Assembly: GCA_003024785.1 (NCBI GenBank)
Contig: PUQB01000097.1
Span: forward strand, 503,804-567,803
Direction of reading: 5' to 3'
Origin: Selaginella tamariscina
Taxonomy: Eukaryota > Streptophyta > Lycopodiopsida > Selaginellales > Selaginellaceae
Length of the DNA stretch: 64,000 nucleotides
Part shown: piece after piece, positions 21,746 to 62,803 of the stretch
Numbering within the stretch: position 1 is the first letter of the stretch
How the letters are laid out: every line of letters starts with the position of its first letter
Position numbers and translations under genes: made by a program
The notes under the pieces: model-generated
The model's database searches: none
What the model was told of the DNA's origin: nothing
Seen by the model: only the letters and a program-made list of their open reading frames with translations

Positions 21746-22914
21746 GCTATATACTATATTATTTATATTATATAGATTTTTCATATTTGTATATTATGAC
21801 TTCTATTCAAATCACTTTTCATTATATAAAATCACTTTAAACTTATTATTCATACGACTGCCAATGTGGAAATCCATGTGTCACAGAATGAATGAGTTGT
21901 AAAATATGAGACAGAGCTTCTTATATGGATGATATGGAGTATTTAAGAGAACTATCGTAAAACAAATTATGTATTCTGCATATAAGTGCAATATTAGTTT
22001 ATTCTAAAATTCCAACAGTAAATTATATTTAAATGTTGAAAAAATAATAATATACGTAGAACATGATTTAAGTTCTTGACCTTTACTTTCATTTATATTA
22101 TATATACATGCAAAATTATTAATAGAAAGAAAAATACTTTCTAGATCACTTAAAATGAATATCCAATATAAACTTTTCATTAAAAAGCTCTTTAAGAAAA
22201 CTTAAATTAATAATATAAAGATATCAATTGATAATATTATTACATTACAACTTAACATTAATGATACAAGATAGTATAGATAATTATATGACACATAACA
22301 GCTTATGCATAGAATAAAAATTTATAAACACTGTTTATATTAGATATGACCAGCGAAATTAGCCGTAGTCCAAAATCGCTACGGATTAGTAACTAAATAA
22401 ATTAATAATTAAACATTTCTATAACATTTTTTGACTACGGCTAGTTTCGCTGGTTATGATATATAGTCACGATTATATCTATACATTTAAAGTAATAATA
22501 AACATGTTCTTTATATTTTAACATTTATATCTATTTTAATATTAATTGTTTCATAGTAAAAGTGTGAAGTTTTAAGTTGTTAAACACATATTTAGTAAAT
22601 ATAATATAATTGCCAAACTTATTGAATCAATCTTTCATATTTAATCTTAAAGTTATAAAAAAAGAATAAAATAATATATAAAAAACTTTACACTTTTTCA
22701 ATCTCCTGTTTTACCTACATTACACAACATTTTCTTCACATAATGTATTAAAAGGTAATTCTTAGTCTAAATAAACTCTCACATAAGTATCTTGAAGTTT
22801 TATTTATATATTGCATTATATTATGTGTGTTATACACACACGGTGAACACCATTTGCAAGCATGTTGAGGTTTGGAAATGAAATTTGAAGAGGGTTCTCA
22901 TATATTATGAAATA
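21746..22914. other. AT-rich intergenic region holding one MITE
   Basis: No coding frame is supported. Apart from the MITE at 22349-22454 only AT-rich sequence and a short CA run are seen. Confidence 0.6.
22349..22454. mobile_element. 106-bp MITE with 22-bp terminal inverted repeats
   Basis: The left arm starts ACCAGCGAAATTAGCCGTAG and the right arm is its reverse complement with one mismatch over 22 bases. TATG directly flanks both ends (22345-22348 and 22455-22458), a candidate 4-bp target duplication. Just inside the left arm CCGTAG pairs with CTACGG, giving a second hairpin. It is non-coding; the superfamily cannot be assigned from one copy. Confidence 0.8.
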
Positions 22915-25759: not shown

Positions 25760-26261
25760 AGCAATTATAAAATTATAAAATATCATATATTTAATATTCA
25801 TAATTATATAAACTCTTTAATAATAGTACCAAATTGTTACTTAACTATATAAATTTAAAAAAGATATGGAAGATTGACTATATTATTATAGGATTTTATA
25901 TATATATATATATATACTACAAATTTTTAATTAATGTTATATTTAAATATTAATATTTTAATAACAACATCAATATTTATATAATGTACCTCTTATGCTC
26001 TTCCTTAATTTTATATTAGGCAAATATATTATATAATTAATTAATACCTTCTACTTTTATAATGTTATTAATTTTTGTTCATGAATGCTATAATTTATTA
26101 AAGGGTTGATACAAAATAGAATATTCTAAAGAATATTCTATCTTCAAACATATATTCTAAAGAATATTCTTTAATATTAGAAAATGCTAATTAAATAACT
26201 AAAATTACTAATTATTAAGAAATGAGACTATAGACATGCCCATTTTAGTTATAACATGCAT
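22915..26261 (+). mobile_element. 5'-truncated half of the DUF7869-type transposon (copy A)
   Basis: The opposite-strand counterpart of 36832-40260. It begins abruptly within the N-terminal coding region (equivalent to DEVKADTEY of the other copy), runs through the coding part and a shared AT-rich tail with AGAATATTCT palindromes, and ends at 26235-26261 in the same terminal sequence as the 14.7-kb element. The 5' portion and its palindrome array are missing. With 36832-40260 it forms a large tail-to-tail inverted repeat around about 10.6 kb. Confidence 0.85.
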
Positions 26262-26728
26262 ACTAAGTGTTAAATACTCTAGCAAACATACATGTTTGTG
26301 CTTGCATCATGGTGCTAAGCTTTGTGCATCGGCTCAAGGGTGATTAGGTCTCATAACTGGGTGTGCTACTTGCACATTTCGCTAGGGGTGTTCTTTTTAG
26401 GATTTAGGGGTTGAACAATCGAAACTTGTTAGCATAGGTCATGTACATAAAGTTATCTAAATTTAGTCTTAGGGAGTTTACTTAGTAAAACACTCATGTC
26501 TGCTTTTGGTGCACACTCTTATCCTCACTAAGTACTAGCTCTAGGTCTAGGGTATGACTTACTCTTTAGGGTTAGTCATGGTTCACGGGACCCTTATTAT
26601 CCTAAAGGGGTTGTGCTTTTAAATGAGGGTGATTTTTTAAGGGGTAAATGATAAGGCCTTAGCTCTCATGAAGGTATGCATGGGACATGTCTCTTTGGTG
26701 GAGTTAGGGCATGAGCCTATTTAGGTCT
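26262..26728. other. Unassigned sequence between repeats
   Basis: Less AT-rich sequence between the copy A terminus and the chromovirus LTR, with no coding frame. It was continuous with 31817 onward before the chromovirus inserted. Confidence 0.5.
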
Positions 26729-27184: not shown

Positions 27185-27199
27185 ACACCTCCTCCCTAA

Positions 27200-31238: not shown

Positions 31239-31324
31239 GATCTATGAAAGAAAACGAAGGAGGAAAAACAAGGAAAAAAAAGTAACTAGAAATCGGAGAG
31301 TTATGAAAGGAGTTACTATCAAAC

Positions 31325-32244: not shown

Positions 32245-34469
32245 ACCTCCATCTGATACACCGATACATTACAAGTCAGGTTGCACGGAGCATCGTCAAC
32301 TTGATCAAGGGTCCTCACAATGATGCATGGGTTTTTTGACTACTGCACTAGGGGATCCGTCTTGAAGGAGTGTTACCTTCGGGATACATGTGTGTTTGCC
32401 GTTGAAAAGGATAAGACCATGGTTGAGGACTTGAACAAGTAGATATAGAGGTTCTCAATTGACTACCCCAACAAACCCATACATGAGTATTTGAGAAAAT
32501 TCCCTTCTGAGAAGTGCGATAGCTCTGATGAGGAATTTGGTTTAATGTCGGAGTTTGAGGACGATCTTCAATCAGATATTAGATCGGAAGTTATTTCGAG
32601 GAGTATAGAACATTCACATACTCCATTCACCATGAAAACATCAACAGAAGAAACAGAAGATTATGAACGATCTTCCAAGCGGCTTAAACCTTCTTCACCT
32701 CACTCAAAAGATAACAGCGAAGAAGAATTGTTAATGAATTGTTAAAGTGATGAATAGTTGTAAATAAGTGTAACATAAGGCATTTTTGTATATTTCGTTT
32801 ATATTTGTACAGAAAATAAATTCTCAAGGATAAAGAAGCTTTAATTCAAACATGGGTCACACATTAACAAGGTAAATAATATACCTTGATAATTTTAAGG
32901 TCAGCTAATTATCATTTTACAGATGCAATGAAACAATTGAGAACATGGATTTTCAGCATTGGCATGAGGTAGAGAGGGGTTTGGCGACAATTTCTTGTGC
33001 CACATGTCAGAATGACAGAGTTCATGCAGGAAATGGATAATAATGCAGCGCAAAACATCGTTACCATGGGGGCCACTTCAGTTTTTTTCATCATCATTTT
33101 TATTGGCTTCAATTCCGAAATCAATTTCTTCAGCGCATGCAATATCTGAATCTTGTAAGGATGATGTAAAATTAAATGATGAAGGGATAGGCAACGAGAT
33201 AGTGGCAACAGATAAATGTGAAAGGGAGCAAACAAGTGATTTGTAAAGTATTCAAGAGGCAACGCTATCTCATGTTACTCATGGCCATATTGTGTTGTTG
33301 GATGTCAATGGTGTTCTGCTTCATCGACAAAGGCCCGAGGATAGGAAAAAAGAAATAAACAAGGAGATTTCATTCCTGTCATGGTAAATTTCGATATGAT
33401 ATTATTTTCGTCTAGGGTTGGATCGTCTCTTTCAAAAGCTTAAGGAATGGGTGCGCTTGTGGGGATTGGTCATGCATGCAGATTTATAACTTAACACCGC
33501 TGTTGAATTTGCTTAAGAAACATTTAGTGTTGCAGAAGAGGTGATTCGTAAAGATTGGATTTTGACCAGTGAATGTGTTATAAACCTCTCGAATTTCACA
33601 ATATAAGAAAGGAAAGCAAGCCATACTTCTTCAAGAATGAAAGAATAATTAGGACTCATGGGGAGATCAGTCGCTTAAGGATAATGAAGAATGCACATAT
33701 CTTAGTAGTAGACGACTCTCCTCAGAAGGCTATGCTCAACCAAAACATTGCTTGTATTCATCCAATCACTTTCGATCCATATTCTAATATCGATATCATG
33801 GATGAGCTAGTGAACTACTTGGATACGTGCCTCAGAAAGAAGAATCTCAAAATTTTTTGTGAGTAGTATCCACCGTATCATACATTTCCTAAAGCTTTTC
33901 TTTCTCGTGATTTTAAATTTTATAAAATGAAGGATAATAACCAGGCTTTATAATATTATTCTTAAGGAACGTCATTCTTTAGATGAACCTTTATGCAGAC
34001 CTGGTCTTATTACATCTTATGTATTAACAAGGATGGCAACTCCCAATTGCATTCGTGAAAGTGTTAGGTGGTGGCAACAACATCAAGATATTGACCAAAA
34101 TGATTTGATTAATCCGGAGAGTGATGATTTAGACAAAATGAGGAGATTTCTCTGTATGGTTAGGAAGAAAGTATTTATAAATAAATTAACATGTTGATAA
34201 GGAAATGATTTCATTTGTAATTATGTTTGATAGTATTTCTTCATTATTGTAAACTATTTTTAAAATAATATGAATATTCTAAGATAGTTTAGGAATATTC
34301 CTTACTAAGTAAGGTTATTGAAGGATTAATTAATTAATTAATTAGTATTTAAGGCTTAATTACATATTAATTAAATGATTAATTAATAATTAAAACTTAA
34401 ATATTAATTAGTAATTTATTTTATATTCCCATTTTCACGTATCATGCCCACTTTAGTTACAACGTGCAT
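32245..34469 (+). mobile_element. Right-half fragment of the 14.7-kb transposon family
   Basis: Collinear with 49191-51533: the acidic C-terminus of the long gene, the phosphatase gene, the AT-rich tail and the terminal sequence at 34443-34469. It is 5'-truncated and older than the 49-51 kb copy, with more interruptions. Confidence 0.85.
33000..34196 (+). pseudogene. FCP1/NIF-type phosphatase, decayed copy 1
   Basis: Matches 49990-51260. Motif I VLLDVNGVLLHRQRPEDRK and motif III NAHILVVDDSPQKAMLNQ are readable, as is the C-terminal block PLCRPGLITSYVLTRMATPN. The frame is interrupted several times. Confidence 0.8.
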
Positions 34470-35708
34470 AAAGCATTCGAGAGGCAATGCTACCCTTGTT
34501 ACCCATGGTCATATTGTGTTGTTGGATGTCAATGATGTTTTGCTTCATCAACAAAGGCTTGAGGATAGAAAAAAAGAAATCAAACAAAGAGATTTCATTC
34601 TTTGTCATGATAAATTTCGATATGATATCATTTTTCGCCCGGGGTTGAACCGTCTCTTTTAAAAGCTTAAGGAGATGGGTGCACTTGTGGGGATTTGGTC
34701 ATGCATGTAGATTCACAACTTGACACCGCTGCTGAATTTGCTTAAGAAACATTATAGTGTTGCAGAAGAGGTGATTTGTAAAGATTTCATTTTTGACCAG
34801 CGAATATATTATAAACCTCTCAAATTTTATGATATAAGAAAGGAAAGCATGCCATACTTCTTCAAGAATGAAAAATTTATTGGGCTTCATGGGGAGATCA
34901 ATTAGTTAAGGATAATGAAGAACGCACATATCTTAATGGTATACGACTCTCCTCAAAAGGTTATGCTCAACCAAAACATTGTTTATATCCATTCAATCAC
35001 TTTCGACCCATATTTTGATATCAATATTATGGATGAGCTAGTAAACTACTTAGATACGTGCCTTAGAAAGAAGAATTTCAAAAACTTTTGTGAGCAATAT
35101 CCACCGTATTAAACATTTCCTAAAGCTTTTCTTTCTCGTGATTTTGAATTTTATAAAATGAAAGAGAGCAACTGGGCACTTTACAATATTATTCTTAAGG
35201 AACGTCATTTTTTAAATGAATCTTTATGCAGACCTGGTCTTATCACATCTTATGTATTAACAAGGATGGCAACTCCTAATTGGATTCGTGAGAGTGTTAC
35301 GTGGTGGCAACAACATCAAGATATTAACCAAAATGATTCGATTAATCCGAAGAGTGATGATTTAAACAAAATGAAGAGATTTCTCTGTATGGTTAAAGAG
35401 AAAGTATTTATATAATAAATTAATATGTTGATAAGGAAATGATTTCATTTGTAATTATGTTTGATAGTATTTTTTAATTATTGTAAACTATTTTTACAAC
35501 GAAGAATAATATGAATATTCTAAGATATTTTAAGAATATTCCTTAATAAGTAAGGTTATTGAAGGATTAATTTGTTAATTAATTAATATTTAAGGTTTAA
35601 TTATATATTAATTAAATAATTAATTAATAATTAAAATTTAAGTATTAATTAGCAGTTTATTTTATTCCCATTTTCATGTATCATGCCCATTTTAGTTACA
35701 ACATGCAT
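34466..35708 (+). mobile_element. Second right-end fragment with FCP1-type phosphatase, decayed copy 2
   Basis: Starts immediately after the terminus of the previous fragment, at the position equivalent to about 50240. It keeps VLLDVNDVLLHQQRLEDRKK, a KNAHILMVYDSPQK version of motif III (first Asp of DDSP lost) and the tail, and ends in the same terminal sequence (35682-35708). The two fragments are therefore head-to-tail neighbours, by insertion or tandem duplication. Confidence 0.8.
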
Positions 35709-36831
35709 TAGTATTAAACCCATGACACAACTCCAAAGGGTGTGCCTCATGTATTGTACCATGCGTTGTTTAACTTAATGTCACATGTTCATGTGACATT
35801 GTTTTCAAAATGTATGTTATTTTGCCATAACCACTGACTCAAGAGTTACACTTAGTGTCACAAATATGACTTATAAATGCAAGCTTTAGAACCCCTTTAT
35901 GAACCATAAAAAACTTATTAAAAGAACATGTCAACCAAGATCCCACACTCACAATTGGGCAAAAATATGTATGTGTCCTATTTAGTTATATAATGTTACT
36001 CTTAACTTAATGTAAAGGAGACCTCAACCTTTGACCCTTAAAATGTGTATTTCGATAAAACCTTATAGATACGGATTTATTAATGTTAAGGATAGGCTAC
36101 CCTAAAGGTAGGACATATCTTTATTGTCTGGAAGTTGAGGCGGCACAACAAAGGGTTATGCATTGATGACATAAGCTTGAGATTACATTGGTAAAAAAAT
36201 AATAAACTTAAAAATTCTTATTTCATATCCTACTTAATATATGTGATAGAGCCTCTCCTCCCCTTGTTTTTTTGTTTTATAAAGTGATATAACGCGGAAT
36301 TTCATTTTCAATAGGAATATATTTGGTGAATTTAACCTAAAAACCCATTAACTGAGTGTAGAGTTAAGGCTTATTTGACACACCAAACTCACCAAAACTA
36401 ACTATAAGCCTAATCGGAACATGAAAATTAAGGATAAGAGTTTTTTAAATGGAAGTGCTAGTTTCTTTTGTAAGTACCTAACGACACTGATCGAACCATC
36501 ACTAGATACTCAAGTGCATTAAGTGGGTATGTTTCCTAACACCTAGAGCTTATCAACATAATTTAATAGGTAATAACAATCAATATCCAAAGTAAAGAGT
36601 AGTCATAATAAAAACTTTTTAAGTGGTTAAATGCCAATCCTAGAAACTTTCTCTAGAAACCCTATGAAATTTGATAAAATAATCTTTATTATGAATCCGT
36701 CTCTTAGGAATTCACACTCACAATTAATCAAGTTTATGGATAATGCTCACCTTGTGAGTCAGGATGTGTGAGCTAACCAAGCTACAAATATTATTACTAA
36801 TTTGGCATGGATGAGTCACTCTCTTCACAAT
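35709..36831. other. Unassigned repetitive spacer
   Basis: No coding frame. Contains the second copy (36510-36616) of the low-copy repeat at 32133-32235. It ends in CAAT at 36828-36831, the candidate left target duplication of the 14.7-kb element. Confidence 0.5.
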
Positions 36832-36858
36832 ATGCAAGTTGTAACTAAAATGGGCATG
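36832..36858. repeat. Left terminal inverted repeat
   Basis: 27 bp, inverted partner of 51507-51533 with two mismatches. The same sequence is found at 26235-26261, 34443-34469 and 35682-35708. Confidence 0.85.
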
Positions 36859-37338
36859 GCTATAGTCCCATTTCCTAATAATTAGCAATTTTAGCTATTT
36901 AATTAGCATTTTCTAATATTAAAGGAATATTCTTTAGAATATATGTTTGAAAATAGAATATTCTTTAGAATATTCTATTTTGTATTCTACCCTTTAATAA
37001 ATTATAGCATTCATTGAACAAAAATTAATAACATTATAAAAGTAGAAGGTATTAAATTATATAATATATTGCCTAATATAACAATTAAGGAAGAGCATAA
37101 GAGGTACATTATATAAATATTGATGTTGTTATTAAAATATTAATATTTAAATATAACATTATTAATTAAAAATTTGTAGTAGTAATAATATATATATAAA
37201 ATCCTATAATAATATAGTCAATCTTCCATATCATTTTTTAAATTTATATAGTTAAGTAAACAATTTGGTACTATTATTAAAGAGTTTATAATAATTATGA
37301 ATATTAAATATATGATATTTTATAATTTTGTAATTGCT

Positions 37339-40300
37339 TTAAGCTTCAGAAAACATACATTCCCTTGCAGTTTTGTTAATCGTGACTTTATCAACGCTTC
37401 TTGACATCCACCCATATCGAATGGATTTAACATTTATAAAACATGCTGGGTCTTTTTGATTGGGAACCATGTTTTCTCTAGGCATCCATTATATCTTTCG
37501 CTCTCCTTCTCGTGTCGCCTTTTTTGTGGTTTGAACCATGCAACCTTAACAATACTATTTTTTGTGATTACTTCAGGTGTGTCGATAATTTGACCCATCC
37601 AAATAGGCTGATTATATGACGCATCTGGAGTAATGAGAACCATCATTAGTTTTTGAAGATCCTGGCAGCAATCAAAGTATGCTTTAGGTTTTTGGTTCCT
37701 TTGTCCAACAAAGTGTGGGGTTTGCACTTCCACATCACTACTGGCTTCTATGTCGTCTGTGCTCAGTGATGTCATTTCAATCTCCTCTCGCCACCTTGTT
37801 TTAGGCCAAAAAGGGTGTTGCAATTCTGTACTTGTGACAGTAGGCCCTTCCAACTCTCGAACAACAGTCTCCCAATAGTCAACCACATGCTTATATAGTT
37901 CTGAGTAACCAGTTGCCTTATCAGAATTCTTTGGCATCGATTTTTGAACCCATGCCACATATTTTTTGATGCCATCAATAATAACCTCTTGTTCCTTGAG
38001 CTGGGCACTCAATGGAATAGGGTCTGGTTGTCCTTCTGGGAGAAGTGGCTTTCCATTCTCTCCACTTTTGAAGAGCATTAACCCCTCTTTCGGTAACCAC
38101 TCCTGCTCTGATGGCCGTAACTTGTACTGCATAATAGGTATACCATCTCGTATGGAGAAAAAGAATTGTAGCGGCACAAGGTGACCAACTAAAGAATCAC
38201 TCCCCTCTTTTATATACTCCTTGAGAAATTTTTTGAAGTCTGGCACCTCAGTCACAAGCAAAGCACAACTTTTTTTGGAGATGCAATTTTCAAAAAGATT
38301 CATCATATGCGGTAAGGTAAGTGCACTTGTCCTTTTTGTAGAGTTGGAGACCTTGCTGAAGAACGCATCAATATCTTCATGAGTGTGACCAACCATAAGA
38401 AAACTGAGCGTGATTGTTTCAAACACACCTTTGGCAACAAGCATTGACAAGTATGCTAGCACATATCTAGAAAATAAAAGTAAGTATGAGCTTGAGAAAC
38501 CCTTAAGTAAAATGATTTACCTATTTTTGTTCTCGCCTGCACAATTATCCATCTGTAAAAGCAAATGACGAGGAAGCTTATTTGATGTTGAGGACACATG
38601 TACACTATTTGAGCTAGATCCCTCCACTGAACCTGAACTCTCAACAGGGCCATCTGTTTTTTGTGCAGGTTGCTGACAATGCCTCTCATATTCCCAAGTA
38701 GCCTCAAGTGCAGACGTGTTCATGAGAGCATTATGTAAAGGTTGAAGGTGTTGTTTCTTCACTTTGAGATCACCGATAGGACTTGTCTGTGAGTGGGCTT
38801 CAAGGTTTCTGAAACACATGGCCAACGACCCAATAGTGAAATTGGAGTCGCTAGACCAATGTGGAAGTGAAAAGTGTCCATATGATTCACAACCGTGTCC
38901 ATGTGTTAGCACACCTGTCAATGAAATCGGAAGTTTCATGACATTTCCAAGGCACTTTGGTGTTGCAACGAGCTTTGGAATGCTGGTCTTTGAATGATCC
39001 ATCTTGTCATGGATCAAGCACAGGTACTCTGATGGGCGTGACACAGAAAGCATGCGGTGTGCATAGTACTGAGACCGGCAAGTTTGTTGCGCAATCATGT
39101 GGGCCTCCATCTTCTTTTGAATGGCAGTGATCTCCACCAAGGTTTTTGCACAAGCCTCTGCAGCCTTCAATGATGTACAAGTGTCACACTTGGAAAAGCT
39201 AGAGTGTTTTGCAATCTCCACATCCTTAAAATGAGTATTCCATATGTTGTTGAAGGTACCAGTGCAGATTGCTTGCAGCCCCATCAAGCTGAGGCACTTG
39301 TTCACATGTTCACACAGCTTCAATTGAGTGTAGATCGAAGGCAAAACCTTGAGATTTTCCCTGACCCCTGCATTTGTGGTTCGGCATTTGTGAGGCATCC
39401 TGTCTGCATTTGCTTCCACAAAAGCCTTGAGTATCTCTATGGCTGCCATAATGTGAGAGCGGGTTTTGACCAAGCCAGTGTTCCCATGTACTGAGGTTCG
39501 CGCTCCATCTAACCACTCATCCCTCCGACGGTAGAACGTGGTCTTTGGGATCCCATATATACTGTACCAAGCTTTGAAGCAGATGGCCACCTTATTAAAT
39601 ACCATGGATGTACTCTGATAACCTGTGTCCGAAGCCATTCCATCAATACACCCAGTTAGTGCAGCATATACAAACTCATGCCTTTGCTTTTGGGTGAGCG
39701 TACGAAAGACATGTCTACATTGGGTAATTTCATTCCGGTCTGCCATCTGACAACACTTCTTCTTGCAGCAGTCAATCGTGGAAATGCTCGTAACACTTTC
39801 GGAAGATGTAGGATCCATCTTCATCCTCTTGCTGAAACATGTAGGGGAAGATCTGCAACCCATGAATCGCCTTTTTCTTAAATAGGACCAATGCAAGGAA
39901 CCTCTTCAAATATGAGTTGTTCTTCCGGGTTGTTATTATTGAAATCCAACCCAGAATATGTTGAACCATCTTGCCGTCTTAATTCAGATGTTCGCCACCT
40001 CACGAGGGATCCAGGATGCAAAGTGCCATTAGGTGAAACCTCTGTCACAACTACACCCACGAAGTCGGACCCTAGTTTCTCTTCTGACACTGCTTCCATT
40101 GGATTTATAGCTGTGATGATGCCTCTCCCAACCTCAATCTCATGAAGAAAGAGAATCACCTCATCCATCACAGCAGGCAAGCCATCATCTGGAAAACTCG
40201 TGCTACTGTTTGTTTGTGACTCTGTATATTCTGTGTCAGCCTTGACTTCATCCAAATTCCACAATACAGGAGAACCCTCCTCAAATTCCATTCCAGGAAC

Positions 40301-40462
40301 CTCAACATGCTTGAAAATGGTGTTCACCCATACGTACACACAAGATCCTTGGGCAATATTGTGACATGATGCATTATCATCTCGAACTTCCACAGTTCCA
40401 GTGCCAACTATCTCGTTGTTCCGAAGAAGACATACTTTATCTCCAGTATTATACATATTGTC
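37339..40462 (-). CDS. DUF7869-type protein, putative transposase
   Basis: Roughly 1,000 residues in two exons split by a 54-base intron (38520-38467) with normal borders. The N-terminus (GDKVCLLRNNEIVGTGTVEV) has a small beta-rich, DUF8039-like look. The middle is Cys-rich (CCKKKCCQM, FSKCDTCTSL). The DUF7869 region has LLLQMDNCAGENKNR, broken by the intron, then LSFLMVGHTHEDIDAFFS. These Asp-bearing strands look like an RNase H-fold DDE core, though I know of no proof of catalysis. The stop is at 37339-37341 by comparison with copy A. The frame is interrupted about twice. A TGTGCAG acceptor precedes the first readable codon, so an upstream leader exon beyond the palindrome array is likely. 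Good match to the DUF7869 pattern; the transposase role is inferred. Confidence 0.75.
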
Positions 40463-40608
40463 CTGCACATAAAAATTGTGTTATTTATGATATCTGTTTA
40501 TGCAATATTTGTAAGAAATCATAACTGCAGTTGCTTAATAATATGCATGTGCAATAATACATAATTATATATAAAAATAATATCTCATGCTTTATTAATA
40601 TAACTGAT

Positions 40609-41447
40609 GGGCGGGATTAATCCCGCCGCAGACTCTACCCCTTCAGAGTGAGTCGGCGGGATTAATCCCGCCGCGACTCTACCCCATCGGAGAGAGTCGG
40701 CGGGATTAATCCCGCCGCCGACTCTACCCCGTCGGAGAGAGGCGGCGGGATTAATCCCGCCGCCTCTCCCTCAGAGAGAAGGCGGCGGATTAATCCCGCC
40801 GACTCCCCTCGAGAGAGCGGCGGGATTAATCCCGCCGCGGGCTCCCTCCGACGAGGAAGTAGCGGCGGGATTAATCCCGCGCGGGCTCCCTCCGACTAGG
40901 AAGTACCGGCGGGATTAATCCCGCCGCCGGATCTTCCTCGTCTGTGAGAGTCGGCGGGATTAATCCCGCCGCAAATTCCTCCGACGAGGAAGAGGGGGCG
41001 GGATTAATCCCGCCCACAACACTGACGACGGAGAATAGGCGGCGGGATTAATCCCGCCCACAACTCTGACGACGGGGAATAAGCGGCGGGATTAATCCCG
41101 CCCACAACTCTCTCCGAAACTATGATTTCAAAGAGATTCGGGATGAATTCTGCCCACAAATATTTAAAACAGGGAAGTAGTGGCGAGATTAATCCCGCCA
41201 CCCCTTCTCTGCCTCCTAAAATGGTTGGCGAGATTAATCCCGCCGACAACTCTTTCTAATAAATTCAAGTAAATCATTATCAGTTGAGAGAGTTATCGGC
41301 GGGATTAATCTCGCCGCTCTTTTTAAGAGGCGGAGAAGCATTGCCCGAACTAATTCTGCCATAGCTATGAAAGAGATGGTGGCGGGATTAATCCCGCCAC
41401 CTCTTCAAAGAGGCGAAAAAAAAGGCCGGATTAATCCCGCCGCCCCG
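40609..41447. repeat. Palindrome array 1 (about 19 units of GGCGGGATTAATCCCGCC)
   Basis: An 18-bp perfect palindrome recurs about every 44 bp, with spacers of related but varying sequence (GACTCTACCCC, GGCTCCCTCCGACGAGGAAG). Units near 40470-41130 are nearly all exact; those toward 41450 are more diverged (GGCGAGATTAATCCCGCC and others). The GC content stands far above the surroundings. It lies directly upstream of the leftward DUF7869-type gene, probably between its leader exon and first coding exon. Confidence 0.95.
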
Positions 41448-42789
41448 GCTAACCGAGAATACTAAGTTAAAAGTATATTTAAACGGGATAAATCCCTAAC
41501 AGAATATATTGTAATCCTAATGCATTCCTAAATCCCTAAATTCTAAAATTTAAGAGAGAATGTAAGAGAGTGAATCTTTATAAATATATCTAAATTTGTT
41601 TATAATACTTACTTGTAAACAGCACTGAAGGCGCCGTGCTTTCCTATAAACAATAGCGCACCCAATTTAATGTCGCTCCTGAGCTGATCACTAAGAAGAA
41701 AAAAGAAAATCTGAAGAGTGAAAATGAAGAAACCCTTGCCGGAGAAAGAACCAGATCTGAATTTGAGTGGGAAATTAAATGTATTTTCAAATTTACATGT
41801 CAGACTGATAATACTTATGTCAGAAATTTTTTGAAATAACAGAAAAGAAAATTTAAGATGAGTTGAAACAAATAACCGACAGTCTGACATATATACTCTC
41901 CAATTCCAATGAGTGTTTTAAAATTGCATTTAATGTCATTCAAGTGCTTCAAGCTGTTTAATATTACGAAATTTTTGTAATTATTCTATTCTTAATATTC
42001 AAGTATATATTATTAAGTTTATATTATATATATATATACACTAATACAATAAATAAATTGATATATTATTATGTATCATTTAAAATATATTCATAGTCTG
42101 TTTATTATTATTATTTTCTTAATTACTCGAGTAATTAATTTACATTTCCTACTATTAATGGGATATTCTTTTATTTTCTTAATATTCAAAGAATATTCCA
42201 ATATTAAACATATTATCATAATTAAATTAGTCTTATTCTTAATTATCTCAGTAATTATTCTACATTTGTATATATTAATGGGATTTTCTCAATTAATTTG
42301 TTATTATTTCAAGAATATTCTAGTGTTAAACCTTATTATCAATATTAAATTAATATATATTATTAAAACTATATATGGCTATATATTAGATAAAATCATA
42401 TATTATTATGTATAATTTAAAATATGTTCATAGTGTGTATATTAATATTATTTTCTTAATTATTCGATGTTTGTTTTGCACATATTATATATAAACACAA
42501 TCATAAATTTATATATACATGTGCACACGCATTAGAAGCACTTACAGAGACACATATGCACACACATGCACATTGCCCTAAACCAAACTTGAGAAATTAT
42601 ATGTTGCTTCTTTATTGAAAAACATCATGTTCAACGCATGTATGATCTATATGTACTCAGTGTGTGTGTATGTAACACATTGAATTTACACATGTAATAT
42701 ATATGTATGTCTGTGTGTATACACGTGTGTATGTATATATGTGTACTAATATAATATATGCAATGTGTACGATTTTCATTTGTTAACAC

Positions 42790-43310
42790 TCTATCTCTTC
42801 TCTCATACATACACAGTGTCACCATGCATAATCCCTTCTCTCATACATACACACCATGCATGATCATGATCCATAATATGTAGCCTGTCTCTTCTCTCAT
42901 ACATACACACCATGCATGATCCATAATATGTACTGATGTTACAATATTATGTAATATGTATAATGTATATCTGTGTATAACACTCACTCCTCTCATACAT
43001 AAACACCATGCATGATCCATCCTAACCCTAAACCCTAAACCCTACATTGAATTTACACATGTAATATGTATGTATGTCTGTGTGTATACACGTGTGTATG
43101 TATATGTGTGTACTAATATATCCAATGTGTATGAATTTAATTTGTTAACACTCTCACTCTTCTCTCATACATACACACCATGCATGATCCATGTAAATAT
43201 GTACTGTCTCTCTTCTCTCAAACATACACACCATGCATGATCCATAATATGTATTGTCACTCTTCTCTCATACATACACACATACATGATCCTGTACTCT
43301 GTCTCTCTAA
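42790..43310. repeat. Minisatellite (TCTCATACATACACACCATG unit)
   Basis: Irregular tandem copies of CTTCTCTCATACATACACAC followed by CATGCATGATCCATAATATG, about 40 bp per unit, at least six copies with AT-rich inserts. Confidence 0.8.
43021..43045. repeat. Interstitial plant-type telomeric repeat
   Basis: Three CCCTAAA-type units in a row (CCTAACCCTAAACCCTAAAC and onward) within the minisatellite. Too short for a chromosome end. Confidence 0.85.
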
Positions 43311-44169
43311 TATTAATATATACTAATATGTATGTAGGAATGTTTAAAGTTTATTCATGGGCTAAATACAAGTATACATAAAAACATCCCAACGGATTTT
43401 ATATAAACCTACTCTTATTCCCATCCCCCTAAACCCAAGCATCGTTGAGTGTTCGAAGAAGAAAGTAATCGATTCAGACCTTTACGGGTAGTCTCTCGCC
43501 CGGATACTGTCTCGAGCTTCAATCTCCAAACCACAGCTCACAAGCACACACCAAAGAAAAAAGCAAACACAAACAACGAGGCCAAACCAATCGCAGCAAT
43601 GCCCAAAGTAGCTCCATCACAACCACTATAGCATACCACATACACATCCACCAAGATCAAACATCAAATGCCTAAGGATATGCCCAATACGCATCAGAAT
43701 GACCACTTATTGCAAACACACCAAACCTCTTCGTAAACAAGAACCATCGTTGCAGTTGCCCTCTTAGAAGATACCATTAAACCTTAGAGCAATCCCTAGC
43801 AAACTGTATAGCAAATGCCCAAACTAATATGTATGTATGTCTATGTGTATAATACTATGTGTGTATATATGTATCGCTGCATGTGAAACTTTAACACTTC
43901 ATGGGACACACACGTGTTAAACCCTTGCATGATATTTTATTCTTGGGGTGTATGTGATACACCCACGCACACGCACACGCTGATAATATAATGAAAAAAT
44001 ATTTGTTTAGGGCGAATCTATAGTTTATTCTTTTTAGGGTTTAAGTATATTCTTAGAAGGAATATTCGATTAGGGTTAATATATATTCTATTCCTTTTAG
44101 GGTTTAAGTATATTCCTAGGGTTTGTAAGGCGGCGGCAGCGGCAGCGGCGGTGTGGAAATCTCCTTCTC

Positions 44170-44442
44170 TCTCACACACAGGTGAGATCTCTCTCTCTCA
44201 CACACGCACACTCCTATGAGTTTATTTATTTATTTTATTCACATATATATTTATATGTGTGTGTATCTTAATAATATAATTTAGATCTCTATCTCTCGCA
44301 CACACACGCACACTCGTATACATATATACACACAGATATATATATATATATATATATCTGTATGTATATATATATATATATATCTCCTCTCTCTCTCTTC
44401 TCTATAGATCTCTATCTCTTGCACACACACGCACACTCGTAT

Positions 44443-44482
<40 letters not shown>

Positions 44483-44557
44483 TATATATATATATTATAT
44501 ATATATCCTTCTCTCTCTCTTCTCTATAGATCTCTATCTCTCGCACACACACGCACA

Positions 44558-44610
<53 letters not shown>

Positions 44611-45150
44611 CTAGAATATATATATATATATCTCCTTCTCTCTCTCTTCTCTATAAATCTCTATCTCTCGCACACACGCACACTCGTATACATATATACA
44701 CACAGATATATATATACATATACACACACACACAGATATATATATATATATATTCTATTTATTTATCTATATATATGTGTGTGTGTGTGTATCTGTATAA
44801 TTTTATTGATTTGTTAATTGTATCTCTCGCACACACACGCACACTCCTGTATATATATGTGTGTGTGTGTGTGTTTGTTTATCTGTATGATTTATTTTTT
44901 CACACACGCATACACACGATATACATATACACACATATATATATATATATACCTATGTATACATACATATATTATGTGTACCAGTATCTGTATAATTTTA
45001 TTTATTTATTTATCTCTCGCACACACACGCGTATATACATATACATATAGTGTGTGTGTGTATCTGTATAATTTTATCTGATTTGACTATCTCTGGCACA
45101 CACACGCACTCTCCTACACACACATATACATTATATATCTGTGTGTGTGT
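44170..45150. repeat. Tandem composite microsatellite block
   Basis: A unit of about 115-190 bp made of CTCTATCTCTCGCACACACA, CGCACACTCGTATACA and (TA)n or (CA)n runs is repeated at roughly 44283, 44407, 44527, 44649, 44821, 45013 and 45089. Open frames through it are artefacts of the repeats. Confidence 0.85.
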
Positions 45151-45156
45151 GTGTGT

Positions 45157-46341
45157 AGCGGCGGGATTAATCTTGCCGCTATATGGTGAGACGTGTGTAG
45201 GCGGGATTAATCCCGCGCTATATAATTAGCCACTCGGCGGCGGGATTAATCCCGCCGCCATTTCAGGCCCGAGTGAAGGGCCTGGGCGGCAGAATTAATC
45301 CCTCCACCTATGCATGCCCTGCGCGGAATCGGGTGGGATTTATCCCGCCGCCATTGGCCTGCCTGAAGGGCCTAGGCGGCGGGATTAATCCCGCCGACTA
45401 AGGCCCGAGTGAAGGGCCTGGGCGGCGGGATTAATCCCGCGGCGTACGCATGCCCTGCGCGGAATCGGGCGGGATTTATCCCGCCGCCATTGGCCTACCT
45501 GAAGGGCCTAGGCGGCGGGATTAATCCCGCCGGATTTCGCACAGGGCATTGGCGTTCGGCGGGATTAATCCCGCCGACTAAGGCCCGAGTGAAGGGCCTA
45601 GGCGGCGGGATTAATCTCGTCGCGTATGCATGCCCTGCGTGAAATCGGGTGGGATTTATCCCGCCGCCATTGGCCTGCCTGAAGGGCCTAGGTGGTGGGA
45701 TTAATCCCACCCAATTCTGCGCAGGGCATTGGCGTCCAGCGGGATTAATCTCGCCGCCTAGGGCCCAAGTGAAGGGACGGGTCGGCGGGATTAATCCCGC
45801 TGCCCTGCGCGGAATCGGGCAGGATTAATCTCGCCGCCAAAGGCCTGCCTAAAGGGCCTAGGCGGCGGGATTAATCCTGCCCGATTTCGAGCAGGGAATT
45901 GGCGTCCGGCGGGATTAATCCCGCCGCATAGGGACTGAGTGAAGGCCCTGGGCGGCGGGATTAATCCCGCCGAGCCTTCAATGCCTATTGGAGGAATGAA
46001 TCCCGCCACCCTTCCTTTTTTTCTCCATTGGTGAGTCGGACCAATCCCAAACGTTTCTGTCTGAGACGTAGAAGGTTTACAACATACCAATGGAGAGAAC
46101 GGGGAAGGGTGGGGAAATTCATTTAACCATCCCTTACATGGTGGGCGAGATTAATCCCACCTCCTTTCTGGAGTCACTGAAGGGGTGTGCCAAATAAATC
46201 CTGCCCAGTTCTCTTTGAGACCGAAAAGGGTGGCAAGATTAATTCCGCACTCCCGTTCAAGGCCTCCAGAAAGGTGGTGAGATTAATCCCGCCCACTCTT
46301 TTAGGAGGCATTGAAGGGGTGGCGAGATTAATCCCGCCGCA
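45157..46341. repeat. Palindrome array 2 (about 25 units), alternating with a second palindrome
   Basis: The same core as array 1 recurs about every 45 bp, including GGGATTTATCCC and GGCGAGATTAATCCC variants. Many spacers contain AGGCCCGAGTGAAGGGCCT, itself an inverted repeat with a 7-base loop, so two palindrome types alternate. Other spacers share ATGCATGCCCTGCGCGGAAT. Units after about 45960 are diverged. The array lies directly upstream of the rightward long gene. Confidence 0.95.
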
Positions 46342-46417
46342 CCTTCCATGTGAATATATATGTGCTTTTATCATCTTATCATAATATTTCGAGTAAAAAC
46401 TAGGAAACTATGTAAAA

Positions 46418-46500
46418 CTGTCCAGAGCTCACATTTGTGGTGGTTCTAAAACGAAATGTTATCTTTCCTTTGAACTAGCACAAAGGTGAGCTTTGGACAA
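46418..46500. other. Imperfect 30-bp inverted repeat (hairpin)
   Basis: CTGTCCAGAGCTCACATTTG at 46418 pairs with the complement of the segment ending at 46500 (CAAAGGTGAGCTTTGGACAA) across a loop of about 23 bases. It sits between palindrome array 2 and the ATG at 46644. Confidence 0.75.
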
Positions 46501-46643
46501 TTAATTCCGTCTACTTCTCTCTGTGTATTATTTTTGTATATTTGGGTTTATACAAGTGTGTGTGCATTTTATATGATTTGTATTCATAGTGTATTATTTT
46601 GCAAAAAGACGATTTAATTAAACAAGGAGATCGAGTCATTAGT

Positions 46644-49600
46644 ATGGAGTCGTCGTCAAATTCTGGGTAAGAATTAAAATAAAATCTGTTATACTCGGAT
46701 ATGTGCTTGAACTAATCATTTTTGTATTCAGATGTGGAATTGAGGTAACATTAAAGACGAGAGCAGGAGAAGAGATGGGCAGGGGGATTCTGGAATCAAC
46801 TTGGCCATATTTCAAACTAAACGGAAGCGCATTGGAACAACCATGGTTGCTGTCAAACTAACCTCTGTCACATCGCATGGACAAGCAAAACAATGGAAAG
46901 TGGGTGTGCTAGTCAAGCATCCGAAAGCATGCTGTGAACCCAGATTGAACGATGCTCGACACATATGCCTCGTTCCATCCAATGTCACGTTCTCGGATCC
47001 AGAGGTCACCAGTTACAACATTAATTTCGGGGGTTTTGTCGACTTGTGGATAATGACGTTCACGTGTTCACTAATGATGTTGACCGTGGAGTTCGTCTTC
47101 AACTCAACGAAAGCCCATCTATAAAGGGGATCCATCTGGATGTCTACTTCGAAGATCTTCAGACTCATCGAGTAGGTGTATTGTCAGGAGATATTGCTTC
47201 ACAATACAGAAAATCCACAAGTGGAGCAATCGTCCCTCTTCACATTGAAGAAGAACACAGTGACATCATAAAGGAGATTGAGAGGGTGGCTTGGTCTCAG
47301 GTTCTTTACAGATCACGTTCAATTTGCTTAGCAAATTTCGGGAGCTTGAAGAGTGTGCCGAGAACATTAGAACAGCATCAATCGGGGATCACACATGTTG
47401 ATTCGGATCGTAGAAGAAAATCATTAGTCGTTTTGTCAACTGCACCTGTGGCGTCCCATGCTGCAATAAGCCACAAGGAAATGATGTTGGATGATAGGAT
47501 TTACCAGTGTAGGGTTAAGTATTGCAGCGTCAACCCAAACTTCAATTACAGGCCACTGAATCAGGAACATGTAGCTGAGCTCATGGAGAAGATGAAGGAC
47601 GACAATTCTTACACCGTTCCACATAATGCTGTTTTGTGCGCATACTACGAGAGACACAAAGGCGCTGACAAAGTGTGGATCACAACACCGGAACAAATGA
47701 GGAAGGTTCAGACGGAGAATAGAAAATCAGTTAAGTACTACATCATTAGTGGCCAGCACACAATAACGGCAGCCCAACGACTTCTCAACGAACACAACAA
47801 AGGAACGATGGCAACAAAATTTTCCGAGCATACCCGTGAGAAGCTGACAAAAAGATCGGCGTTTTTAACGAAGCCGAATCTCACAATCGAGCAGTACCAT
47901 AAGTTATTGGCGGAATGGGACGCTGCAGACACCAACCACTACAACAGCAAAATATGGGAGAAGTTCAAACACACGCGAGCCGTGTGGGAATCTCTTCAGC
48001 GACCGCAAAGAGCTACTGCAGGGAATACACAATCTGCAGAGTACCGGGTAAGCAAATTGTTTGGGGGGATTTATCTCGCCGGTATATTAATCTGTCTTTT
48101 TCTCAGAGAGTTGAAGAAATTGTAGCAGTTGATTTTGCCCAGGTGGGCGGGAAGGAAACATCCTTTTTGATGATGTTGATTTCTTGTCCTGAGGATAGGA
48201 TCTTTGCGAAATGGTTGGGGATTATGGAATCCTTTGCAAAAGGAACACTGAAAAAGAAGCAGACAAGTGAAGTGAAGCCCTCAGAGAAGTCTGCAAAGAA
48301 ACCCAGTAAACGCCGAAGGCTAAGTCTGTTCAATTTATAAAGGATGTAGACAATGATTTCAAACTCACATGGTTGAAGCCTTTAAATGGAACAACGATGG
48401 AGGAGATGGAAGTCTTGGCTGATTTGGTGATTGATGGCAAATTACAGATTAACAACAGCAGCCCCACCTCTCCTTTTCATCTCAAGGCAATGGAGTTGAA
48501 GACGGTCAGGCACTTCAAGGAGTGGTTGGGAATACACTGCACAAACTGGGTTGGATTTCGGCTTCAACATACGAAGAGGTCAACAAATATTTGTATGTGA
48601 AAACGATGATATGCTTGTCGAATGGGTGAATCAATCGGAAGATCTGGGCAAGAATCTATTGCACGCCAACGCCAAAAAGGAGAACATTGCGATGACGCCT
48701 TCTCTTATGGCAGTCCTTCAGCAGCGGAGAACCGAGTTGAACCTTATAAAGGAGGATGTTACGAATCATGACAAGCCCTACAGATGTTTGTTGTTGGATT
48801 CGGAGACTTTATGGGGTACCATCACTGCTTGTAGGAAACTGTTTTAATTGTTCGTGATGGATCGGCGGGTGTCAAAAAATCCTTCGACAGACAGGACACT
48901 AGAGGATTTGGTGGAGAAACTTAGCCGTGCAAGCATGTAAAAGAAGGTATATTATTGAATTCATATGTACTGAAGAATGATTTATTATTGAATTCATACT
49001 TGCACTTTGCTCATGTCACCGATACCTTTGCCTTCTCCTTTGCCAAGAGGAATAAACATCGTTGGACAGGATTTTATATGAATGATGCTGATCCGAAGTG
49101 CATTGATTCGGTTGTTCACTTGGTTGTTAGGAATGCGCCAAACAGTTTCAAACTTCCAAATGACTGGCCAGGCATCTGTTTGCACTCCAACGGCCCTGAA
49201 CCTCCATCCGATACACCGATAGGTGAGAGTGACGTATTCGGCAATGTACGTTATCCAAACATCACAAGTCAAGCGGCACGGAGCATCGTCAACTTGATCA
49301 GGGGTCCTCACAGTGATGCGTGGGTTTTTGACTACTGCACTAGGGGGTCCGTCTTGAAGGAGTGTTACCTTCGGGATACATGTGTTTTGCCGTTGAAAAG
49401 GATAAGACCATGGTTGAGGACCTGAACAAGTGGATAGATAGGTTCTCAACTGACTACCCCAACGAATCCATAAAGGAGTATTTGAGAAAGTTCCCTCCAG
49501 ATAAGTGCGATAGCTCTGAAGACGAATCTGGTTCAATGTCGGAGTCTGAGGACGAACTTCAATCAGATATTAGACCGGAAGTTATCTCGAGGAGTACAGA

Positions 49601-49757
49601 ACATTTGCACACTCCATTACCCATGGAAACATCAATAGAAGATGCAGAAGATCTTGAACCATCTCACAAGCGGCTTAGACCTTCTTCGCCTCACTCAGAA
49701 GGTAATAGCGAAGAAGAATTGTTAATGAATTTTAGAGTGACGAATAGTTGTAAATGA
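46644..49757 (+). CDS. Long transposon-borne protein with a ParB/Srx-like domain
   Basis: About 1,000 residues expected. The start MESSSNSG is followed by a 65-base intron (46667-46731); a second short intron is 48048-48106 (CGG/GTAAGC..CTCAG/AGA). A segment at about 47570-47790 resembles the ParB/sulfiredoxin fold: VNPNFNYRPLNQEHVAELME, then YYIISGQHTITAAQRLL, with GQHT where ParB has GxxR. A basic stretch (KKPSKRRRL) could be a nuclear localisation signal, and the C-terminus is Ser- and acid-rich (CDSSEDESGSMSESEDELQ). The frame is interrupted several times in this copy. A second partial copy is at 32245-32745. No family is recognised for the rest; a DNA-binding role is inferred only from the ParB-like part. 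Confidence 0.6.
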
Positions 49758-49989
49758 GTGTAACATAAGGCATTTTTGTATATTTCTTTTATATTTGTAC
49801 AGAAAATAAATTCTCAAGGATTAATGAAGCTTTTAGTTCAAACATGGGTCACACATTAACAAGGTAAATAATATACCTTGATAATTTTAAGGTCAGCTAA
49901 TTATCATTTTGCAGATGTAATGAAACAATTGAGAACATGGATTTTCAGCATTGGCATGAGGTAAGAGAGGGGTTTGGCGACAATTTCTT

Positions 49990-51284
49990 GTGCCACATGT
50001 CAGAATGACAGAGTTCATGCAGGAAATGGATAATAATGCAGCTCAAAACATCGTTACCATGGGGGCCACTTCAGTTTTTTCATCATCATTTTTATTGGCT
50101 TCAGTTCCGAAATCAATTTCTTCAGCGCATGCAATATCTGAATCTTGTAAGGATGATGTACAATTAAATGATGAAGGGATAGGCAACGAGATAGTGGCAA
50201 CGGATAAATGTGAAAGGGAGCAAACAAGTGATTTGCAAAGTATTCAAGAGGCAACGCTATCTCATGTTACTCATGGCCATATTGTGTTGTTGGATGTCAA
50301 TGGTGTTCTGCGAGGCAACGCTATCTCATGTTACTCATGGCCATATTGTGTTGTTGGATGTCAATGGTGTTCTGCTTCATCGACAAAGGCCCGAGGATAG
50401 GAAAAAGAAATCAAACAAGGAGATTTCATTCCTTGTCATGGTAAATTTTGATATGATTATTATTTTTCGTCCAGGGTTGGATTGTCTCTTTCAAAAGCTT
50501 AAGGAGATGGGTGCGCTTGTGGGATTTGGTCATGCATGCAGATTCATAACTTAACACCGCTGTTGAATTTACTTAAGAAACATTGTAGTGTTGCAGAAGA
50601 GGTGATTCGTAAAGATTGGATTTTTTACTAGCGAATGTGTTATAAACCTCTCGAATTTCACAATATAAGAAAGGAAAGCAAGCCATACTTCTTCAAGAAT
50701 GAAAGAATAATTGGGACTCATGGGGAGATCAGTCGCTTAAGGATAATGAAGAATGCACATATCTTAGTAGTAAACGACTCTCCTCAGAAGGCTATGCTCA
50801 ACCAAAAATTGCTTGTATTCATCCAATCACTTTCGATCCATATTCTAATATCGATATCATGGATGAGCTAGTGAACTACTTGAATACGTGCCTCAAAAAG
50901 AAGAATCTCGAAAATTTTTGTGAGTAGTATCCACCGTATTATACATTTCCTAAAGCTTTTCTTTCTTGTGATTTTGAATTTTATAAAATGAAGGATAGCA
51001 ATCAGGCGCTTTATAATATTATTCTTAAGGAACGTCATTTTTTAGATGAGCCTTTATGCAGACCTGGTCTTATTACATCTTATGTATTAACAAGGATGGC
51101 AACTCCCAATTGCATTCGTGAGAGTGTTAGGTGGTGGCAACAACATCAATATATTGACCAAAATGATTTGATTAATCCGGAGAGTGATGATTTAGACAAA
51201 ATGAGGAGATTTCTCTGTATAGTTAAAAAGAAAGTATTTATAAATAAATATAAACATGTTGATAAGGAAATGATTTCATTGTAA
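49990..51284 (+). CDS. FCP1/NIF-type HAD phosphatase, transposon cargo
   Basis: Contains HAD motif I in FCP1-like form (HIVLLDVNGVLLHRQRPEDR; DxN in place of the usual DxD), FRPGLDCLFQKLKEMGALVG, motif III NAHILVVNDSPQKAMLNQ (VVDDSP in the copy near 33.7 kb) and a C-terminal extension LCRPGLITSYVLTRMATPN. FCP1/NIF phosphatases usually remove phosphate from Ser/Thr of RNA polymerase II or other nuclear proteins. Here motif I lacks the second catalytic Asp (Asn instead) and the frame is interrupted several times, so activity is doubtful. A small intron may precede it (49966-50005, GTAAGA..GTCAG). Three copies exist in the window, all in this element family. Confidence 0.75.
50248..50375 (+). 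repeat. 64-bp tandem duplication inside the phosphatase gene
   Basis: A segment starting GAGGCAACGCTATCTCATGT and covering phosphatase motif I occurs twice in a row (starts 50248 and 50312), nearly identical. Copies 1 and 2 elsewhere have it once, so it is recent and specific to this copy. Confidence 0.9.
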
Positions 51285-51506
51285 TTATGTTTGATAGTAT
51301 TTCTTTATTATTGTAAATTATTTTTAGAATAATATGAAATTCTAAGATAGTTTTAGGAATATTCCTTACTAAGTAAGGTTATTGAAGGATTAATTAATTA
51401 ATTAATTAATATTTAAGGCTTAATTACATATTAATTAAATGATTAATTAATAATTAAAACTTAAGTATTAATTAGTAATTTATTTTATATTCCCATTTTC
51501 ACGTAT

Positions 51507-51533
51507 CATGCCCACTTTAGTTACAACGTGCAT
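51507..51533. repeat. Right terminal inverted repeat
   Basis: Inverted partner of 36832-36858. CAAT follows at 51534-51537. Confidence 0.85.
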
Positions 51534-52669
51534 CAATGACTCATCAAGCCCTTTTAACTCCACTAAATGATTTTCTAAAGACTCTTCCTAATTTTTTTTT
51601 AAAAACAATCTTTATGAATGATATCAATACGAGTTATAACTTCTAAACTATAATATGCAAACTTAAAAAAGATTTCTATAGTAACATTACAGGTTGTCTT
51701 ATAAGTCTAAAATCCTAATTTTTTTGTTTTTTATGAATCACTTTATTATCCTTATATAAATAAATAAGTTGAATCCACTAATAAGGTTATTAATAAGAAT
51801 GTTTTAAAGAAGTATAATATTTTTATACTTTATAACCAACTCCTTGGTGTGTATGAATCTTTTCATTAACAAATTACTTGTGAATTCCATAACTTACTAT
51901 AATGGTGTTGTAAATAACTGGTGCTATCTTTACAATAAAAGCATATCACTATTCAATGATTTCCGGATACTTTATATATCAACTAATCTTTTATATATAA
52001 TGGACTTACTTTTAAAATATTCTAGTAATTTCATTTTTCCATTTTTTCTTATTATATTTAAAATGTTTTATTCTTAAAATACTTTATGTTTAGACCATTC
52101 ACTATATGTCTGTTTCTCTCTCTCTCTCTATATATATATCATGTATGTATATAAACTATATAATTAATACACCCATTGGGCATAAGTTAATTATTAGGTT
52201 AAATAAGATTCATTTAGGTTAATGAAATCAAATAAAATTATTAATAAATTCTTTTTTTTAAAATGGAACCAGAAAATAATCTTAAATTATATACTATTAG
52301 TATATAAGTTTCTAAGCGCCCTAATTGCCACATAATATATTATATATATCAAAATTTGAATTTCTATATATATCATGGCTTCATATGATTTTTTTGTATA
52401 TACATACTCGTTACATTGATAATCTCTCCTTGTCACCTTTCTTTTTACCTCTATATATATATATATATATATATTTTGTTCTTCAGATGAAATCTAATTC
52501 TTACTCGTTGAATTGGTCTACAATGCTCTTGCTGACACTGGTTTCCTTATGTTCACAAGTTTCATGAGCATATGCCACCACGAATGAGCTATTAAGCTGG
52601 AAGGTGTAGCGCACGACCCTGATCACGTTATCATATGCCGTACTCTTGCAACGTGGAGTGACTTTCATA
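51534..52669. other. AT-rich intergenic region
   Basis: No gene supported. A short frame at 52488-52567 (MKSNSYSLNWSTMLLLTLVS) looks signal-peptide-like but ends after 26 residues. Short (CT)n(TA)n runs occur near 52110 and 52450. Confidence 0.55.
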
Positions 52670-53508: not shown

Positions 53509-54013
53509 TGCTACAAGAAAAAACGACTCAACAACATCACATTATATACAGTCACATAATTATTGACAGAAATTTCTAACACGACACGACTTTGTGAGTG
53601 GTGGTCCTTATAGATGCTTGAAGCTTTACAATCATTCACCATTGTCAGACGACTACTTCCGAGACTTCTAGCCTAGGAGGCCACTTTAAGTAGTACTAAC
53701 TCATAGACAATACATACACAAACAACCAGATATGCAAGAATCTGTATAATAGAGAAGTCGGCCAGGCCCAGGGTTACAGACTATATATACATGACTGCAT
53801 AGGCTCACTAAGGGTTACACACCCTAATGGGTAAAGATTGTTTAGAAAAAATAAGATCCCGGGTCACACCTCAACCAAAGGAACCCAGTGCATTGGGTGA
53901 AGGAGCTGCAAACTTCACCTGGAACCCTAAAACCCACTGCGAATTCCGCAAAACCCACCGAGAATTTTCAAGAATCCACCAACAATCTCCAACAGCCCCA
54001 AAGAACACCCTTG

Positions 54014-55177: not shown

Positions 55178-62803
<7,626 letters not shown>

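Follow-up and report, generated by a model that had tools for sequence, protein, structure and literature searches.

The analysed stretch of Selaginella tamariscina DNA (64,000 nucleotides, here called the window) holds at positions 36832-51533 an element whose 27-bp inverted ends match at 25 of 27 positions, begin with ATGCA and are flanked on both sides by CAAT. Its gene blocks point outward: the left one, on the minus strand, encodes a protein of the Pfam family DUF7869, and the right one, on the plus strand, encodes a putative ParB-like protein (gene R) and a protein with a NIF domain. Two arrays of a single palindrome lie between them (Table 1). All of these features (the ends with their 25 matches, the CAAT flanks, the outward-facing blocks and the two central arrays) had been described in an initial annotation of this DNA, and they were found again on re-measurement. 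Rfam models at gathering scores and tRNA scans found nothing in the window.

Table 1. Features of the element and of related fragments in the window (window coordinates).
Feature	Position	Strand	Evidence or remark
Copy B, inverted left-half fragment, 93%	22842..26262	-	Homology ending at terminus
Copy C, right-end fragment, 89-96% (C and D)	32266..34469	+	Homology ending at terminus
Copy D, right-end fragment immediately following C, 89-96% (C and D)	34470..35708	+	Homology ending at terminus
Left target duplication copy, CAAT	36828..36831	.	Sequence
Left 27-bp terminal inverted repeat	36832..36858	+	27/27 in 10 further copies (picked for identical left ends)
Probable transposase (DUF7869) exon, GHTHEDID motif and C-terminal half	37437..38466	-	Pfam, splice model
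Putative 54-nt intron of the transposase gene, GT...AG	38467..38520	-	Flanking exons join in frame
Probable transposase exon: HTH-like segment, CxxC, first catalytic Asp motif (IHDKMD), QMDNCAGENKN	38521..39818	-	
196-aa ORF, probably encoding the transposase N-terminus	39878..40468	-	phmmer to homologue N-termini
Palindrome array 1, 17 near-copies (11 perfect)	40610..41441	.	Adjoins transposase gene start
Palindrome array 2, 24 near-copies (6 perfect)	45160..46338	.	Adjoins ParB-like gene start
Gene R, about 988 aa, ten reading-frame pieces	46644..49754	+	ParB-like motif region within 47043-47984
Lone degenerate palindrome within gene R	48063..48080	.	One in the corresponding part of 7/7 elements
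NIF (CTD-phosphatase-like) domain, frame broken	50260..50945	+	Pfam; 64-bp tandem duplication at 50248-50375
98-aa ORF after the NIF domain, possibly the last part of that gene	50988..51284	+	ORF; no family above cut-off
Right 27-bp terminal inverted repeat	51507..51533	-	Sequence
Right target duplication copy, CAAT	51534..51537	.	Sequence

A scan for inverted 27-bp pairs with at least 22 matches, identical 4-bp flanks and a distance of 1-20 kb returned none in eight Markov shuffles of the window and 116 in the real window. The ten pairs listed of these 116 all match at 27/27 and connect the element with the inverted copy B, the element's own pair not being among the ten. The terminus recurs at 26235-26261, 34443-34469 and 35682-35708, with 24, 27 and 25 of 27 positions agreeing with the right-end sequence, and in all three fragments (B, C and D) homology to the element stops at this terminus. 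They had been annotated as decayed pieces sharing one end sequence, one from the left half (B) and two from the right half (C and D). That description stands for these three, while the word decayed does not suit the family overall, which has many identical ends.

In the 300.7-Mb genome of S. tamariscina, at least 40 matches to the left end were scored, and 28 left ends, including that of the window, are identical over 269 bp. Ten further copies were fetched, selected (not randomly) for having an identical left end. Both ends are present in six of them, which together with the window makes seven bounded elements; the other four are not judgeable, since three contain stretches of N and one meets a contig end. 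All seven bounded elements hold the transposase gene, the ParB-like gene, the NIF gene and both arrays, with the two halves in the same order. An exact 4-bp duplication flanks five of the seven (CAAT, ACTA, ATGG, TAAT and ATAT) and is absent from the other two. Inverted ends and a duplication of fixed length thus recur over several copies, and the element is a giant cut-and-paste DNA transposon, a genuine and recently active 14-15 kb component of the nuclear genome. The proposal of a single family whose full form contains both halves is supported by these copies. Two patterns had been named that would speak against it: halves with separate pairs of ends that never occur together, and the lack of a 4-bp duplication at other copies. 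Half-elements with their own pair of ends were absent among the seven bounded copies (from ten fetched of at least 40, picked by their left end), and the duplications recur with differing sequences.

The two exons of the left gene, joined in frame, give an ORF of 776 aa. The N-termini of ten homologues were compared with the 196-aa ORF by phmmer, with E-values of 1e-8 to 4e-4 in seven of them and 0.011 to 0.077 in the other three; an intron tried between this ORF and the next exon shifted the frame. With this N-terminal part the protein would reach about 970 aa. The gene clears the Pfam model DUF7869 (PF25273) with 158.8 bits against a cut-off of 26 (E 1.6e-46), and the closest DUF7869 proteins are 47-48% identical to it, in alignments that cover 84-86% of the query. 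In the family alignment, D169 and D172 are present in 46/46 rows with letters and D327 and D369 in 48/48; the window protein carries the matching Asp motifs, and three invariant acidic residues fall at active-site positions. A structural model of DUF7869 has the strand and helix order of an RNase H-like fold, and its best structural matches by VIA-align are retroviral integrases and Mos1, in a list that excludes no family. Based on these invariant residues, placed on the modelled RNase H-type core, and on the integrase and Mos1 matches, DUF7869 is very probably a DDE/D transposase, which would give a Pfam domain of unknown function a likely biochemical role. A search of PDB sequences with the DUF7869 profile gave no match, and viral contigs contained pattern matches of DUF7869, with no relative confirmed, and no copy of the element terminus. 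The literature searched for "DUF7869" or "PF25273" contained no paper naming the family, and therefore no described element is tied to it; the annotation's remark that DUF7869 lacks an established role was fair within that literature, to which the evidence for a transposase is now added. An N-terminal domain common to the transposase and R, indicated by phmmer at E 0.0074 in a set of 11 sequences and not supported by HHalign, is not claimed.

In a profile comparison, the putative ParB N-domain motif of R scored 27.1 as a single sequence, with 60 shuffles staying at or below 18.5 and a probability of 18%; with all eight copies (all rows kept) the score was 32.7 and the probability 52%. The motif aligns at the place expected from phage ParB-type and ParB-methyltransferase proteins. 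Searched as a whole against Pfam, NCBIfam and PHROGs, the ORF hit none of their ParB models; it matched PDB sequences only at E 0.86 and above, and had pattern matches in viral contigs with no relative confirmed; a single-sequence fold (pLDDT 37) was set aside. On this weak profile evidence R may be ParB-like, as annotated.

By published description, the closest kind of element is the giant Sola-type transposon that carries a ParB-type accessory gene. The published account of Sola1-1_Ec32 from Ectocarpus describes a 21.5-kb DNA transposon whose accessory gene, running antiparallel to the transposase gene, encodes a divergent ParB-methyltransferase protein of 1104 aa, ParB-like plus N4mC/N6mA methyltransferase (PMC12477816). 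The Selaginella element resembles it in being a giant DNA transposon with a putative ParB-like gene opposite to the transposase; section 5 of that account makes no mention of palindrome arrays (PMC12477816). The earlier statement that no superfamily with this structure has been described has to be tempered to this extent, as a transposon with a ParB-methyltransferase gene is in print. The 4-bp target duplications (five of seven copies here), the terminal inverted repeats and the large transposase also recall the Sola superfamily, for which a 4-bp AT-rich duplication is given for Sola2 (PMC3627910) and Sola1 is listed for Physcomitrella (PMC9033089). Assignments to KDZ, piggyBac/Kolobok and CACTA elements were rejected, given duplications of 4 bp and ends beginning with ATGCA. 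KDZ elements make 8-bp duplications, piggyBac and Kolobok target TTAA, and CACTA elements have CACTA ends and a target duplication of 2-3 bp. In Spm, subterminal repeats serve the protein TNPA. The combination of a second gene with repeated short sites is shared with En/Spm (CACTA), but here the ends and the duplication length differ and the arrays are internal.

Following the Ectocarpus example, R could be a complete ParB-methyltransferase fusion that marks the element by binding the arrays and adding methyl groups to adenine or cytosine within or close to them. The layout and the opposite-strand accessory gene of Sola1-1_Ec32 are alike (PMC12477816), and the C-terminal part of R contains a stretch (DAWVFDYCTRGSVLKECYL...CFAVEKDK) that looks, by eye only, like AdoMet motif I. 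However, this part gave no signal above shuffles when aligned to the methyltransferase domain of six phage ParB-methyltransferases (score 14.6, where 60 shuffles reached 26.9; with other copies added, 14.4 and 13.6, where 40 column shuffles reached 22.1), and it had no match in Pfam, NCBIfam or PDB sequences. Such a fusion, as in Sola1-1_Ec32, is therefore somewhat unlikely for R.

The NIF gene is probably a captured passenger. On read-through its domain clears the Pfam cut-off (36.3 bits against 21.8, E 5.8e-9), while the ORF alone stays below it (18.8 bits, E 0.0013). Phosphatases of the NIF/FCP1 type carry the motif DxDx(T/V), the second Asp of which reads Asn in the window element and in copies C and D.

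The unit of both arrays is the 18-bp palindrome GGCGGGATTAATCCCGCC, with near-copies counted at up to 4 mismatches and spaced mostly 44-46 bp apart. Since it is alike in both arrays and the linkers between its copies are unrelated, it suggests a candidate binding site. Hairpins in the linkers (mean z -0.9 and -1.0) are not claimed, and in viral contigs the palindrome occurred at one site in one contig, within unrelated-looking phage DNA.

Taken together, a likely explanation is a giant cut-and-paste transposon with a DUF7869 transposase, a ParB-like protein R recognising the palindrome and a passenger NIF gene. It is strongly inferred that the transposase acts on the 27-bp ends and inserts with a 4-bp stagger; R, as a DNA-binding accessory protein, would recognise the palindromes banked beside both divergent gene starts. 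Binding there might control the element's own promoters or shield them from silencing, and so mark the element or counter its silencing, whether or not the DNA is modified. More speculatively, the ParB-type protein and the parS-like palindromes might form a bacterial-style, partition-like module in a eukaryotic transposon, which would mark or cluster the transposon's DNA or insulate it against silencing by the host.

The arrays could instead be promoter, enhancer or transposase-binding repeats, bound by the transposase or a host factor and unrelated to R. They do adjoin both gene starts, and the transposase has a barrel-like region at its C-terminus and, judged by eye, an HTH-like segment; yet 3.8 kb and 5.2 kb separate the arrays from the element's ends, an internal and not a subterminal position, and a degenerate palindrome is also found inside R in 7/7 elements, which makes this reading somewhat unlikely. 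It is still more improbable that two elements fused once, that the composite was then copied and that the arrays are functionless amplified satellites. The left half is indeed the more uniform (identity to the window of 97.4-100% for the transposase in ten copies, against 93.7-97.7% for R in seven), and its 28 identical ends compare with right-end matches elsewhere in the genome of 98-99% at best. Nevertheless, both halves occur in the same order in every bounded copy, an excess of synonymous change is seen in both of them against the two most diverged copies, and palindromes but not linkers are alike across the arrays. Misassembly of noisy reads into inverted repeats and frameshifts is extremely unlikely, and for the whole element largely refuted, by the at least 40 scored places and the seven bounded elements with differing flanks and duplications. 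Single frameshifts may be read errors: frame changes vary between copies with nearly identical DNA, and thus look like read-error indels.

For ParB-type accessory proteins of transposons, a recently reported class, the palindrome is a concrete candidate DNA target, and this young multi-copy family makes both the target and a protective role directly testable. Touching on the partition-like reading, the arrays of each bounded element hold 34-47 near-copies of the palindrome, which adjoin both divergent gene starts and are retained although array copy number changes.

The element at 36832–51533 is a young, giant transposon of the DDE type that has internal palindrome arrays and an accessory gene, R, that is probably ParB-like; it most likely belongs to the Sola kind or stands near it. 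The initial annotation had attributed its two halves to a single family whose full form contains both; the element is real and this interpretation holds, as the transposase, R, the CTD-phosphatase-like NIF domain and both arrays are present in all seven bounded elements (that of the window and six further genomic copies). Its 27-bp inverted ends match at 25 of 27 positions and are flanked by CAAT on the left and on the right. The left block (the DUF7869 transposase) is transcribed leftward and the right block (R and NIF) rightward, their starts being separated by 6.2 kb that contain both arrays of an 18-bp palindrome, with AT- and microsatellite-rich DNA in between. Both ends receive independent support from three fragments of the same family (B, C and D), since their homology is lost at the terminus. 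The first base of D directly follows the terminus of C, as if C had been inserted into D.

Features of the window and further copies with both ends
Feature	Position	Length	Remark
Array 1	40610–41441		
Array 2	45160–46338		
R	46644–49754 (+)		
NIF domain	50260–50945 (+)		
Fragment B	22842–26262		homology to element ends at terminus
Fragment C	32266–34469		homology to element ends at terminus
Fragment D	34470–35708		homology to element ends at terminus
C1333		13,845 bp	both ends
C771		15,031 bp	both ends
C747		14,970 bp	both ends
C542		14,970 bp	both ends
C440		13,933 bp	both ends
C926		~14,176 bp	both ends, right end with one extra base

The window's own genome (300.7 Mb, 1391 contigs) was searched with the element ends. 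With the left 269 bp, 40 places were scored among 1316 first-look candidates, 28 of them with the full score, window included; with the right 269 bp, 40 of 964 candidates were scored, at 98–100%, the value of 100% being that of the window alone. Ten plus-strand copies were fetched, chosen non-randomly among those whose left ends are identical: three hold N stretches, one stops at a contig end, and six have both ends. The 4-bp target duplication does recur at other copies, being found in five of the seven bounded elements (CAAT, ACTA, ATGG, TAAT and ATAT) and absent from C542 (CCTT/ATTT) and C926 (TTAC/TTGC). Neither of the two outcomes set by the initial annotation as contradicting it was obtained. 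Intron-bearing genes and homologues in liverworts point to a plant-like eukaryote as the host. Identity to the window is 97.4–100% for the transposase (10 copies) and 93.7–97.7% for R (7 copies), a greater uniformity of the left half hinting that halves have been exchanged between subfamilies. Beyond the right ends of C771 and C747, an inverted further copy of R starts within about 0.1 kb, which indicates that these elements may insert into or beside one another.

Per element, array 1 holds 14–18 near-copies of the palindrome (up to 4 mismatches) and array 2 19–30, with a median spacing of 40–46 bp. Together with a single degenerate copy inside R in each, the seven elements contain 298 near-copies, 124 of them perfect, and the least variable part is the core GATTAATC. 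Their right-hand flanks (21.2 kb) contain 35 more: 15 past C771, 19 past C747 and 1 past C1333. Between the two arrays of the window, palindromes are 91% identical, whereas linkers are 54% identical, compared to 52% for shuffled linkers. Palindromes common to both arrays, joined by unrelated linkers, argue for a candidate binding site. The arrays offer a candidate target that is absent from section 5 of PMC12477816, in which the ParB-methyltransferase proposal for Ectocarpus is presented.

The ParB-like assignment of R comes from profile comparisons. An alignment of its motif with 12 ParB-type proteins of phages scored 27.1 (probability 18%), the highest of 60 shuffles being 18.5; a query keeping all 8 copies reached 32.7 (probability 52%), in a setting without a shuffle control. 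A 128-aa cut matched a PHROG ParB family (E 0.041), and the same cut scored higher with an unrelated Pfam domain, itself below the cut-off of that domain. The whole ORF gave no match to ParB models, homologue searches with R scored none, and a single-sequence structure model was uninformative. A profile comparison of its C-terminal part gave no support for a methyltransferase reading of R.

R reads as about 988 aa spread over ten pieces, from one to the next of which, apart from introns, the reading frame shifts. Such frame changes occur in all eight copies read, and their differing positions in near-identical DNA point to read-error indels, decay or both. Synonymous/non-synonymous changes number 60/63 against C771 and 63/70 against C542, with a third-position excess, but no clear excess is seen against five closer copies (13/32, 12/28, 21/35, 20/36 and 16/24), so the frame was constrained between subfamilies, and not visibly since. 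Phosphatases of this type carry a DxDx(T/V) motif. In NIF, the window (50260–50380) and fragments C and D (33290–33330 and 34510–34545) read LLDVN(G/D)V, in which the second Asp is replaced by Asn; the phosphatase may therefore lack activity or represent a variant type.

Around the transposon cluster, a direct repeat of about 490 bp (93.5% alike) lies on either side, at 21232–21720 and 54008–54501. Between fragments B and C, at 26729–31777, LTR-like repeats in the same orientation (26729–27153 and 31325–31777, 85% alike) enclose retrotransposon-like ORFs, and a second retrotransposon-like set of ORFs lies at 11050–15314. ORFs at 58311–58619 and 60830–61177 resemble exons of a gene for an MCM replicative helicase and would place a nuclear gene of the host close to the transposon cluster.
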